A DNA stretch of 60,021 nucleotides from contig NZ_FOTI01000016.1 of NCBI RefSeq assembly GCF_900114545.1, positions 1 through 60,021 on the forward strand. Reading direction: 5' to 3'. The first letter of the stretch is position 1, and each line of letters begins with the position of its first letter. Below the pieces are notes generated by a model that saw nothing but the letters and a program-made list of their open reading frames with translations, did no database searches and had not been told where the DNA came from. The position numbers and the translations under genes are program-made. This document shows positions 9,918 through 15,244 of the stretch, piece after piece. This DNA is from Halanaerobium salsuginis (lineage in GTDB: Bacteria; Bacillota; Halanaerobiia; Halanaerobiales; Halanaerobiaceae).

Positions 9918-11138
9918 TTGAATTATTTTTTAACTTTTTTAACCTTATCTTTTATTATTTTTATTTATATAAATCCAGTATCTGCTTTTGATTATCCCAA
10001 TTATGATAAGCGATTAGCAAATAAAGAATTTAAAACAGCTACCTTCTCTTTAGGTTGTTTTTGGGGGCCAGATGCTTCTTTTGGCGCTTTGCCAGGTGTA
10101 ATTAAAACTAGAGTTGGCTATGCAGGAGGAACAACTACTGATCCCAATTATCAAATAATTGGTGACCAGACTGAAACTATTCAGATTGATTATGATCCTG
10201 CTAAAATTTCTTATCAAGAATTATTAGAAAAATTTTTTGTTTCTCATAATGCTTATGCTGAACCTTATTCTTCGCAATATGCTTCAAAAATTTTGTATCA
10301 TAATCAAAGTCAGCAAAAAGCAGCTCTGGCTTTTAAAGAAAAACTGGAAACAAAGACTGGTCAAGAAATTAAAACAGAGATAAAACCGCTAAAAAAATTT
10401 TATTTAGCTGAAAACTATCATCAAAAATTCAGATTACAGCAGCATAAAGAATTTAAAAAATATTATTTAACCCAGATGAGTTTTAATGAATTTTTAAACT
10501 CTCCAACCATTACTAAACTAAATGCCTATTTAGCTGGTAAAGGTAAAGAAGAATGGCTGCTGCAAAATTTAAATGACTTAGCTTTAACTAATCATTTAGC
10601 TGAACAGCTTCTGAAAATAAATAAGATTGATCCAGCTGCCTGTACCAATCTCTGTCAGACTAAACCAGCTGCTGAAGTTAAGTTAGAACAAAAAGATTAT
10701 TCTAAAAAAAGTGATTTAAAAACTAAATTAAATGATTTAGAATATAAAGTTACTCAGCTTGGTGCTACAGAACCAGCATTTAATAATCGCTATTGGAATC
10801 ATAAAGAAGCTGGTATTTATGTTGACGTTGTTTCTGGAGAAGCTCTTTTTGCTTCAACAGATAAATTTCAGTCAGGATCAGGGTGGCCCAGTTTTACTAA
10901 GCCGCTTGTTACAGACAACTTGATAGAAGAAACAGATAATTCACTCTGGATGCAACGAACTGAAGTTAAAAGCAAAAAATCAGGTTCACATTTAGGCCAT
11001 GTTTTTGCTGATGGACCAGAACCAACCGGGCTTCGCTATTGTATAAACTCTGCTGCGCTTAAATTTATCCCGGCAGCTAAGTTAGAAGAAAACGGTTATG
11101 GAAAGTTTAAATATTTATTTAAAAAAGAGGATGATTAG
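9918..11138 (+). CDS. msrAB: Secreted MsrA-MsrB fusion, methionine sulfoxide reductase
   Basis: The 406-residue protein begins with a signal peptide (hydrophobic run to about residue 22, cleavage after VSA), so it works outside the membrane. MsrA follows with the catalytic Cys47 in GCFWG, then a helical linker, then MsrB of the zinc-free type ([10 protein letters not shown]) with its catalytic Cys at about 375 in [11 protein letters not shown]. Together they reduce both S- and R-methionine sulfoxide in exported proteins. TTG start with AAAGGAGGT 7 bases upstream. An electron donor for the exported enzyme (a CcdA or thioredoxin-like partner) is not in the window. The following gene starts 1 base after its stop. 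Confidence 0.92.
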
Positions 11139-11139
11139 C

Positions 11140-11817
11140 TTGAGTCAAATAAAAAAATTAATTCAATCAGCTAAAAATGATCTTAGTAAAATTAAACAAA
11201 AAAAATTAATAGATTTAAGTCAGATAATTGATCAAAACATGCCTGTTTATCCAGGTGATATTAGCACAAAAGTGGAACAAGATCATAATTTGACTGAAGA
11301 TGGATATGTTAACCATAATTTAACTATGGGAGTTCATAGTGGCACGCATCTTGACTTACCTGCTCATATGTTAGCAAGTAAATTAACTGCGGCTGATATT
11401 TCCCTTAACCAACTCAGCGGTCGAGCTGTAATAATTAACGCAACTGAACAAAAAGTAATTAGCTGGCAGTCTCAATATGACAGTTTAATTAGAGCTGGAG
11501 ATAGAGTTTTAATTTATACAGGTTTTGACCAAAAATATGGAAGTAATGAGTATTATCAGGAACATCCTGCTTTAGATCTTGATTTGACCAGACATTTAGC
11601 TGATAAAAAAATTACTTTATTAGGAATTGATTTTCCATCTCCAGATTATTTTCCTTTTCCAGTTCATAAGCAGCTTTTTCAAACTGGAATTTATATTCTA
11701 GAAAATCTCTGTAATTTAGATAAACTAATTCAGTACAGTAGCTTTAAACTGCTAGTATTTCCGCTTAAAGTTACAGCAGAAGCAGCCCCCTGCAGAGTAG
11801 CAGCTCAACTTGATTAA
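11140..11817 (+). CDS. Cyclase/kynurenine-formamidase-like metal hydrolase
   Basis: The 225-residue protein carries the HSGTHLDLPAH motif that defines the cyclase (KynB-like) family, whose histidines and aspartate bind a divalent metal. Other family marks are DLSQIIDQNMPVYPGD near the start and LLGIDFPSPDY in the second half. Members hydrolyse amide or lactone bonds in N-formylkynurenine, isatin and other substrates; the substrate here is unknown. The TTG at 11140 follows AAGAGG by 9 bases; the ATG at 11131 lies on top of that site and is less likely. It begins 2 bases after the msrAB stop and is probably co-transcribed with it. Confidence 0.82.
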   Translation: MSQIKKLIQSAKNDLSKIKQKKLIDLSQIIDQNMPVYPGDISTKVEQDHNLTEDGYVNHNLTMGVHSGTHLDLPAHMLASKLTAADISLNQLSGRAVIINATEQKVISWQSQYDSLIRAGDRVLIYTGFDQKYGSNEYYQEHPALDLDLTRHLADKKITLLGIDFPSPDYFPFPVHKQLFQTGIYILENLCNLDKLIQYSSFKLLVFPLKVTAEAAPCRVAAQLD

Positions 11818-11822
11818 ATAAT

Positions 11823-11851
11823 TTGACAGCTAGCAGGTTATCTGCTAAACT
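11823..11851 (+). promoter_or_regulatory. Promoter P1 of the pfl leader
   Basis: A consensus TTGACA (11823-11828) is followed after exactly 17 bases by TAAACT (11846-11851, four of six matches). Transcription would begin near 11858, just ahead of the folded leader element. The spacer contains the short inverted repeat AGCAG/CTGCT. Confidence 0.5.
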
Positions 11852-11881
11852 TAATAATGTAATTACTAAAATTTAAAATTT

Positions 11882-11990
11882 GAGATTATATAACTGGCAG
11901 ATAATATGGAATTAACCATAGGGAAATATAATCTTTGTTTTTAAATCGCCTGCCTGGATGTTACTAAAATTTATCCAGGAGGCGATTTTT
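11882..11990 (+). promoter_or_regulatory. Candidate ZTP (pfl-motif) riboswitch with terminator
   Basis: The leader shows the elements of the pfl/ZTP aptamer in order: P1 GATTATA/TATAATC (11884-11890 with 11927-11933), the internal-loop motif TAACTGGC (11891-11898), a hairpin TATGG/CCATA (11905-11909 with 11916-11920), then GGGA (11921-11924), a linker, and the conserved CYGCCTGG block (CTGCCTGG within 11946-11957). That block is also the 5' arm of a terminator: AAATCGCC..CCTGGAT (11943-11959) pairs with ATCCAGG.GGCGATTT (11973-11988) followed by T residues. This mutually exclusive arrangement is how ZTP riboswitches turn genes on when ZTP signals low 10-formyl-tetrahydrofolate. The aptamer call rests on remembered consensus, not a covariance search. 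Confidence 0.72.
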
Positions 11991-12104: not shown

Positions 12105-12118
12105 TAATGTGCGAATTA

Positions 12119-12137
12119 GATAATGATAATCAGTATC
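12119..12137 (+). promoter_or_regulatory. Fur box in the pflB promoter region
   Basis: GATAATGATAATCAGTATC matches the classical 19-base Fur consensus (GATAATGATAATCATTATC) at 18 positions, and the Firmicute 7-1-7 form TGATAAT-N-ATTATCA at 14 of 15 (12124-12138). It lies just downstream of the P2 start. A larger inverted repeat, AATTAGATAA (12114-12123) with TTATCTAATT (12149-12158), overlaps it and would form a hairpin in the mRNA leader. A Fur-family protein (Fur, PerR or Zur) is the likely ligand; which one cannot be told. Confidence 0.65.
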
Positions 12138-12206
12138 ATAAAGCTTTGTTATCTAATTATTTTAAATTCCAAAATAATCTTATAAGCTCAAAAGGAGGAA
12201 ATTTAT

Positions 12207-14429
12207 ATGCAATTAGATTCACTGGCAGGAAATAAGTGGAAGTCAGAGATTGATGTTCGCGATTTTGTGCAGCATAATTATCAAGAATATCTTGATGATG
12301 CAAGTTTTTTAGCTCCGGCTACTGAAAGAACAGAAAAGCTGTGGGAAAAATGCCTGGCTTTATTGAAACAGGAAAGAGAAAATGATGGTGTACTTGATAT
12401 TGATACTAATACTGTATCTGATATTAATGCTTATGATGCTGGTTATATTGATCAGGAAAATGAAAAAATTTTTGGTTTACAGACTGATGCGCCTTTAAAA
12501 AGAACAGTTAATACTTATGGTGGTATTAGAATGGCCAGACAGGCTACAGAAGCTTATGGCAAAAAGCTTGATCCTGAAATAGATGAAATTTTTACTAAAT
12601 ATAGAAAAACACATAATGATGGTGTTTATGATGTTTATACACCAGAGATTAGAGAAATTAGACGTTCAGGAGTTATAACTGGTTTACCAGATGCTTATGG
12701 ACGAGGTAGAATAATTGGTGATTATCGGAGGATTGCTTTGTATGGAATTGATCGTTTAATTGAAGCTAAGAAGAAAGATAAAAGTAATTTAACTAGTCCA
12801 ATGACTGAAGAAACAATTCGGCTGCGTGAAGAAGTTAGTGAGCAAATTAAAGCTTTGAAAAAATTAAAAGGACTTGGCGAAACATATGGGTTTGATTTAA
12901 GCAGACCCGCTGAAAATGCCAGGGAAGCTATCCAGTGGACTTACTTAGGTTATTTGGCTGCAATTCAGGAAAATAATGGTGCAGCAATGTCCTTTGGTAG
13001 AGTTGCCGAATTTTTTGATGTATATATTGAACAAGAATTAGCTGAGGGAACTTTGACTGAACAGGAAGCGCAGGAATTAATTGATGACTTTGTAATTAAA
13101 TTACGGCTTGCCCGTCAATTAAGAACTCCTGCTTATAATGAATTATTTAGTGGTGATCCACTCTGGGTTACTATTGTGTTAGGTGGGATTGGAATAGATG
13201 GTCGTCCTCTGGTTAGTAAAACAAGTTTTCGTATCTTAAATACACTTTATAATTTAGGACCAGCACCAGAACCTAACTTAACAATTCTCTGGTCAGAATT
13301 ATTACCAGATTCATTTAAAAAGTTCTGCACAAAAGTATCAAAAGATACCAGCTCATTACAATACGAGAATGATGATTTAATGAGGTTGAAATTTTCTGAT
13401 GACTATGGTATTGCTTGCTGCGTTTCAGCAATGACTCCTGGTAAAGATATTCAATATTTTGGAGCTCGCTGCAATCTGCCCAAAACATTGCTTTATTCTT
13501 TAAATGGAGGGCGTGACGAAAAATCAGGTACTCAGGTAGGCCCTGAATTTAAAGCTTATCAGGGGGATTTATTGGAGTATAAGCAAGTAATGGAAAATTT
13601 TGAACTTTTCCTGGACTGGTTAACTGAACGTTATGTTGATGCACTAAATATTATTCACTATATGCATGATAAGTATGCTTATGAAGCTGTTCAAATGGCT
13701 CTACATGATACTGAAGTTCGCAGAATTATGGGCTTTGGGATTGCTGGATTATCAATTATTGCAGACTCTTTAAGTGCTATTAAATATGCAGAAGTTAAAC
13801 CTATTCGCAATGATGAAGGTCTAATTATTGATTTTGAAATTAATGGAGACTTTCCTAAATATGGTAATGATGATGATCGTGTTGATCAAATAGCTGTTGA
13901 AGTCGTTAAATTATTTATGAATAAATTAAAACAACATGAGCTATATCGTGATGCTGTCCATTCAATGTCTATTTTGACTATAACTTCGAATGTTGTTTAT
14001 GGTAAAAAGACAGGTGCAACTCCAGATGGACGTCCAGCTGGAGAACCATTCGCTCCTGGCGCTAATCCAATGCATGGACGTGATAAATCAGGTGCAATTG
14101 CTTCTCTTAATTCTGTTGCTAAAATACCTTATGAATATTGCCAGGATGGTATTTCTAATACCTTCTCAATTATTCCTAATGCACTTGGTAAAGGTGAAAC
14201 TGAACAAGTTGACAATCTAAGTTCAATTTTAGATGGTTATTTCTCTCAAGATGCTCATCATTTAAATGTTAATGTTATGGAAAGAGAAACACTACTTGAT
14301 GCAGTTGATCATCCCGAAAAATATCCTCAGTTGACAATTAGAGTTTCTGGATATGCAGTTAACTTTATAAAATTAACTCCCGAACAACAGCAAGAAGTTA
14401 TCGCTAGAACCTTTCATAAGTCTATTTAA
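12207..14429 (+). CDS. pflB: Pyruvate formate-lyase (formate C-acetyltransferase)
   Basis: The 740-residue glycyl-radical enzyme converts pyruvate and CoA to acetyl-CoA and formate. The adjacent catalytic cysteines are at about 404-405 (GIACCVSAM) and the radical glycine at about 715 (RVSGYAVNF); the N-terminal segment and the [12 protein letters not shown] and [11 protein letters not shown] blocks are those of true PFL rather than glycerol dehydratase. ATG preceded by AAAGGAGG. It forms an operon with the activase gene and has two promoters, one behind a riboswitch and one with a Fur box. In a fermenter it also supplies formate for one-carbon metabolism, which fits the ZTP-type leader. Confidence 0.97.
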
Positions 14430-14515: not shown

Positions 14516-15244
14516 ATGACAGTAGGATATATTCATTCAATTGAAACATTAGGAACAAGAGATGGGCCAGGAGTAAGATTTGTTGTTTTTCTGCAGGGCT
14601 GCCCGCTGCGCTGTAAATATTGTCATAATCCTGATACCTGGCAGCTTAAAGATGGTCAGAAAATTACAGTTGAACAGCTAATTAAAAAAATAATTAGATC
14701 ACGTCCCTATTTTGAACGTTCAGGGGGAGGAGTTACAGTTTCTGGTGGAGAACCAACTTTACAATTTGCTTTTACACTTGAATTATTAAAAAAGTGCAAA
14801 GAAGAAAATATCCATACTGTACTTGATACCTCAGGCTGTACAGATCCAGATAAGTTTCGCCAGTTAATCCCTTATCTTGATCTTGTTTTACTTGACATTA
14901 AAGAATTAAATAAAGAACGTCATTTAGCTTTAACAGGTGTTAGTAATGACAAAACTCTAGAGGTTGTAAAGATTATGGAAAAAGAAAAGCAGCCTTACTG
15001 GATTCGACATGTAGTTGTACCTGGTTATACTGCTAATAAGTCAAATATAGCAAGTTTAGGTCGCTTTTTAAAAAATAAAAAACATCTCGCAAAAGTTGAG
15101 TTATTACCATATCATAAATTAGGTGAATATAAGTGGGAAGAGTTAGGCCTTGATTATCAGCTTACTGATGTAGCAGAGCCTTCAACTCAATTAATGCAAG
15201 AATTAAACAGTATTTTGGAGCAATACAATTTAAATATTGCCTAA
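14516..15244 (+). CDS. pflA: Pyruvate formate-lyase activating enzyme
   Basis: A 242-residue radical-SAM protein. The iron-sulfur cluster ligands are Cys29, Cys33 and Cys36 (CPLRCKYC), preceded by the GTRDGPGVRFVVFLQG opening typical of PFL activases, and followed by the SGGEPTLQ motif that contacts SAM. It uses SAM to make the glycyl radical on pflB. Length is normal for PflA and lacks the extra ferredoxin-like insert of glycerol-dehydratase activases. ATG with GGGGG upstream; it follows pflB by 86 bases. A [4Fe-4S] enzyme in a Fur-box operon gives a plausible reason for iron control. Confidence 0.96.
   Translation: MTVGYIHSIETLGTRDGPGVRFVVFLQGCPLRCKYCHNPDTWQLKDGQKITVEQLIKKIIRSRPYFERSGGGVTVSGGEPTLQFAFTLELLKKCKEENIHTVLDTSGCTDPDKFRQLIPYLDLVLLDIKELNKERHLALTGVSNDKTLEVVKIMEKEKQPYWIRHVVVPGYTANKSNIASLGRFLKNKKHLAKVELLPYHKLGEYKWEELGLDYQLTDVAEPSTQLMQELNSILEQYNLNIA

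Follow-up and report, generated by a model that had tools for sequence, protein, structure and literature searches.

The pflB-pflA operon of Halanaerobium salsuginis can be assigned, with high confidence, a ZMP/ZTP-sensing riboswitch that acts by transcriptional attenuation in front of pflB, its ligand binding and direction of switching being predicted from sequence. The pfl motif takes its name from its association with pfl genes, and the riboswitch described here is an ordinary, well-supported member of that known class at its eponymous target. It lies within a window of 60,021 nucleotides, the whole stretch of DNA that was analysed, in which a first-pass annotation had placed a ZTP (pfl-motif) riboswitch at 11823-11990, ahead of a true pyruvate formate-lyase (PFL) operon. 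Both assignments are borne out by the evidence below. The operon may also respond to a second signal, as a conserved promoter behind the riboswitch carries a candidate Fur box in this species.

The ZTP aptamer and its terminator

The check proposed in the first-pass annotation, a covariance search with RF01750 (ZMP-ZTP), gave a significant full-length match (model positions 1-86) at 11880-11966 on the forward strand, scoring 54.0 bits against a gathering cut-off of 39 (E 5.1e-6; Infernal, all Rfam, 4227 families, both strands of the 60 kb). This is the sole match, no further family of all Rfam exceeding its cut-off in the window, and a search of the 2.99 Mb genome found one copy of RF01750. 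Helices P1, P2 and P3 and the inter-domain pseudoknot are all present in the window RNA, and the blocks named earlier were found where they had been placed on the forward strand. These include the P1 stem (11882-11891/11926-11935), the ACTGGC block (11894-11899), the ATGG/CCAT hairpin (11906-11909/11916-11919), the GGGA block (11921-11924) and the CTGCCTGG block (11950-11957). The pseudoknot is formed by its 5' strand GGCAG (11896-11900), which pairs with the 3' strand CUGCC (11950-11954). Compared with shuffled sequence, the whole 119-nt leader is more stably folded (z -4.78). The window RNA is a genuine ZMP/ZTP riboswitch that is very probably functional and would be expected to bind this ligand.

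Comparative support comes from an alignment of 24 aptamers gathered from the class, in which P1, P2, P3 and the pseudoknot were written out. In this set, 93.2% of cells are paired and 14 of the 26 pairs have changed on both sides, while the covariation score of 0.299, compared with 0.148 for shuffled alignments, is reached by none of 500 shuffles. Six control structures, slid by 1-3 columns, pair in only 36-47% of cells. The pseudoknot is paired in 24/24 sequences (100%), with both-side changes at three of its five pairs. One pair within GGCAG/CUGCC is A-U only in the window species and G-C in the 23 others, a compensatory change, and two further pairs have changed in other species. This compensatory change, together with the covariation, provides good evidence of selection on the window copy as an RNA. 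P3 of the window RNA contains one non-pair; since columns 76/92 are mismatched in 22 of the 24 sequences, the pair written there is probably not a real one in the group.

These data also bear on whether the aptamer has decayed, such that it still folds while the riboswitch has become unimportant and pflBA is driven mainly from the second promoter, P2. Decay could accommodate the score of the window aptamer, which is the lowest among nine genus members (54 against 58-63 bits), as well as the mismatch in P3 and the constitutive-looking P2 behind the terminator. It is nevertheless very improbable, because the pseudoknot change is compensatory and both partners would not survive decay. Moreover, no part of the conserved core (ACTGGC, ATGG/CCAT, GGGA and CTGG) has been lost, and pairing of the terminator arm with the altered pseudoknot strand is retained.

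The expression platform of the riboswitch is an intrinsic terminator at 11943-11990 on the forward strand, comprising 17 pairs, one bulged G, an 11-nt loop and a T run at 11986-11990. This hairpin folds with -24.8 kcal/mol (z -6.86), and none of 200 shuffles is as good. A simple terminator scan gave none in the leader, as the 11-nt loop lies beyond the scanner limit of 8, and direct folding showed the strong terminator. The hairpin takes up P3 on both sides together with the 3' pseudoknot strand, which falls within its 5' arm, and relatives have the same overlap between terminator and aptamer. Owing to these shared strands, aptamer and terminator are mutually exclusive, so ligand should permit readthrough. 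The earlier view that the last block is the 5' arm of a terminator with ON logic thus held, and an ON switch acting on transcription is expected, with the direction deduced from the strand overlap.

In the proposed mechanism, polymerase starting from the first promoter, P1, would transcribe the aptamer first. When ZTP/ZMP is high, as when 10-formyl-THF is short and purine synthesis stalls at AICAR, the ligand would lock the pseudoknot and P3. This would deny the terminator those strands and result in readthrough into pflBA. At low ZTP, the terminator arm would instead displace P3 and the pseudoknot, and transcription would stop near 11990.

In its core, helices, pseudoknot, overlapping terminator, pfl target and one-carbon logic, the window element is the same as the ZMP/ZTP class (RF01750, pfl motif; Weinberg et al. 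2010, PMC2864571). Nothing essential differs, the pseudoknot having A-U in place of the usual G-C. The pfl ZTP riboswitch of Clostridium beijerinckii, a dissected laboratory model (Bushhouse and Lucks 2023, PMC10085676), is likewise an ON switch before pfl with a bulged terminator stem, where P3 and the pseudoknot give way to an invading terminator strand. The comparison covers the switch part; the window also has P2 and a candidate Fur box between the terminator and pflB.

The pfl operon and its association with ZTP RNAs

The first gene of the operon, pflB (12207-14429, forward strand), encodes a pyruvate formate-lyase (formate C-acetyltransferase) of 740 aa and is preceded by a ribosome-binding site, AGGAGG, at 12193-12198. 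It is followed on the same strand by pflA (14516-15244), encoding a PFL-activating radical-SAM enzyme of 242 aa. Their identity as a true PFL operon is confirmed by matches to TIGR01255 (1200 bits, cut-off 994) for pflB and TIGR02493 (324 bits, cut-off 232) for pflA. The best-matching solved structures of the pflB product are pyruvate formate-lyases, such as 1h16, and the protein contains the ACCVSAM motif with the catalytic cysteines and the RVSGYA motif of the glycyl radical.

The coupling of this enzyme to one-carbon demand, also put forward in the first-pass annotation, is sound in that formate-THF ligase, PurH and PFL/PflA are all present, but it is not new, the same explanation having already been stated for the pfl motif by Weinberg et al. 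in 2010 (PMC2864571). The genome's formate-THF ligase (fhs) would then attach the formate made by PFL to THF. Because the genome also encodes pyruvate:ferredoxin oxidoreductase (PFOR), the output of P1 and the ZTP switch may be as important for biosynthesis as for fermentation. Taken further, the riboswitch might mainly tune a small biosynthetic supply of PFL while P2 sets the fermentation flux, in which case folate coupling of a main fermentation enzyme would be overstated. The presence of PFOR and the bypass of the terminator by P2 fit such a division, as does Thermoanaerobacterium, where PFL is needed for C1 supply and biosynthesis rather than catabolism (PMC4570089). In a Halanaerobium species, however, formate is a major excreted product and PFL was detected under every condition (PMC6544827), which speaks against this division and leaves it slightly short of an even chance.

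Across the class, ZTP RNAs are associated with true PFL genes. The RNA and a TIGR01255 gene occur together in 19 of 59 genomes, with the RNA alone in one and the gene alone in two (Fisher p 2.9e-12, phylogeny not corrected for). In the genome with the RNA only, the downstream genes resemble folE and folP. One family of the class also has a ZTP RNA ahead of fhs, the next enzyme of the same route. Outside the class, a ZTP RNA lies upstream in 20 of the 80 closest PFL homologues.

Two separate arrangements were observed during this survey. In genome G000, a THF riboswitch (RF01831, 76 bits; L067:1349-1444, reverse strand, contig C23) lies between fhs and a gene resembling a folate ECF-transporter S subunit, giving this genome two folate-related riboswitches. 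In genome G056 (L041:1501-1620, L044:964-1036), the T run of the ZTP terminator is directly followed by a group II intron that carries a reverse transcriptase and puts about 2.5 kb between the RNA and pfl.

Two promoters and a candidate Fur box

Promoter P1 (11823-11851, forward strand) consists of a -35 element TTGACA, a 17-nt spacer and an extended -10 element TGcTAAACT, matching the consensus at 10/12 positions with TG and with a predicted start at about 11858. The element is found in 9/9 genus members with the aptamer, with shuffle p values of 0.000-0.020 each. Directly upstream of P1, at 11098-11817, lies a gene of the cyclase family (PF04199), and similar reading frames occur there in genus relatives.

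Promoter P2 (12076-12104, forward strand; TTGACA, 17 nt, TGgTAATAT) was found by the same kind of scan 253 bases downstream of P1 and behind the terminator, with a predicted start at about 12111. The pattern TTGAC[GA]-17-TGnTAnnAT, mostly as TTGACG with an extended -10, is equivalently placed in 9/9 genus members with the RNA. Taken singly, P2 matches often do not exceed chance (shuffle p 0.02-0.24), but position and sequence are conserved. The layout of two promoters some 250 bases apart, read earlier from the window, is therefore upheld by both the scan and conservation in the genus. Since P2 sits behind the terminator, control by the riboswitch probably extends only to transcripts from P1, in agreement with the earlier suggestion of partial control, and P2 would supply pflBA independently of ZTP.

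Between the terminator and P2, a Rex-like palindrome (TTGTAATCTAATTTACAA; TGTAATCTAATTTACA) is conserved in seven of nine genus members (L001-L009) and has diverged in G005. The palindrome TTGTAATCTAATTTACAA is missing before P2 in the window species and accordingly does not belong to the arrangement proposed here.

A feature missed by the first-pass annotation lies just behind P2. The candidate Fur box AGATAATGATAATCAGTATCA (12118-12138, forward strand), at about +7 to +27 of P2, has one mismatch in 19 to GATAATGATAATCATTATC. It is the only site in the window at three or fewer mismatches, where 0.10 matches are expected, and it is among the two best 19-mer matches genome-wide. Compared with Fur-regulated promoters of the classic 19-mer or 7-1-7 type, the box matches at 18 of 19 positions and lies in a repressing position immediately after the -10 element. 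Most known Fur targets are uptake genes or flavodoxin, whereas the target here would be PFL. Through this candidate box, the second promoter likely gains a signal of its own.

Other near-consensus boxes in the window's genome provide context for this site. One perfect box stands ahead of a cluster with genes for FeoB, flavodoxin and a Fur-family protein, a further one precedes an ABC transporter adjoining an AraC regulator, and a box with one mismatch is found 20 bp before another Fur-family gene. The remaining two of the four perfect boxes fall inside coding sequence, so such matches also arise by chance, and the motif alone is no proof of regulation. The genome does combine a near-consensus box just behind a pfl promoter with a set of Fur-family genes, four in number.

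Similar boxes recur elsewhere in the class. Among its 20 pfl genes, four show a 7-1-7 box with no more than one mismatch in the 150 bp before the gene, where 0.013 would be expected, although three of the four belong to one genus. A fifth has a box with two mismatches; the five come from three genera, two of them other than that of the window species, and three of the five from a single genus. Where the leader was read, these boxes also sit just behind a -10 element. In a Clostridium (L104), a ZTP RNA, a terminator, a P2-like element and a box with one mismatch follow one another in that order. Within the genus of the window species, the other eight members with the RNA lack the box, which therefore does not belong to the conserved layout of the genus. 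Nor are Fur boxes a general trait of pfl genes, an idea that was rejected since 2 of 80 distant homologues have one, compared with 1.3 expected.

The box also overlaps the 5' arm of an inverted repeat (12114-12124/12149-12158) that would give the P2 transcript an AT-rich hairpin at its 5' end, and it might be a by-product of this hairpin. In genus relatives, an inverted repeat occurs at a similar place without the box, as a by-product would allow, and the four Fur-family genes mean that the site could also be read by PerR, Zur or another protein of the family. Either alternative is unlikely, given that the 18/19 match is near the genome's best, that boxes occur at the same place in genera with otherwise unalike leaders and in a Clostridium, and that the hairpin is no more stable than its shuffles (z 0.12). 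A box read by Fur itself is the preferred interpretation.

In relatives, the repeat of the P2 transcript (12114-12158) has a counterpart at a similar place near the 5' end, with a different sequence (GCTTAAAAGATT/AATCTTTTAAGC). As a conserved RNA element this hairpin was considered and set aside, because it is visible in the genus but the fold in the window has a z of only 0.12 against shuffles.

Iron as a possible second input

Taken together, a two-input arrangement of pflBA is favoured with moderate confidence. In this modest new hypothesis, the ZTP riboswitch would gate P1 according to one-carbon demand and Fur would gate P2 according to iron shortage, a combination that appears to recur in distinct lineages and might account for the increase in PFL seen when some clostridia are short of iron. 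Specifically, iron-loaded Fur probably represses P2 in this species through the box at 12118-12138, and iron shortage would lead to more PFL at a time when PFOR, an iron-sulphur enzyme, becomes limiting. Both the binding of Fur and this physiology are proposed from the arrangement of the promoter and its box.

Physiological reports differ between species. Under iron limitation, the PFL protein of C. pasteurianum is up to 8-fold higher and the formate yield triples (PMC5395762); a search of its text for a ferric uptake regulator or a Fur box gave nothing. A PFL-type gene of C. difficile goes down, not up, at low iron (PMC6311696). In the open-licence literature searched, no paper joining a ZTP riboswitch, Fur and pfl was found, nor was a PFL promoter with a Fur box. 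If the proposal is true, a single enzyme at the pyruvate branch point would answer two unrelated shortages, of folate one-carbon units and of iron, and this would offer a simple way in which cells could switch between PFOR and PFL according to iron.

A further observation concerns an iron-gene promoter in genome G000 (L184:2250-2400, contig C9), in which a Fur box is accompanied by the repeats TTAGGTGAACCTAA and TTAGGGTAGCCTAA, which resemble sites of the DtxR/IdeR type.
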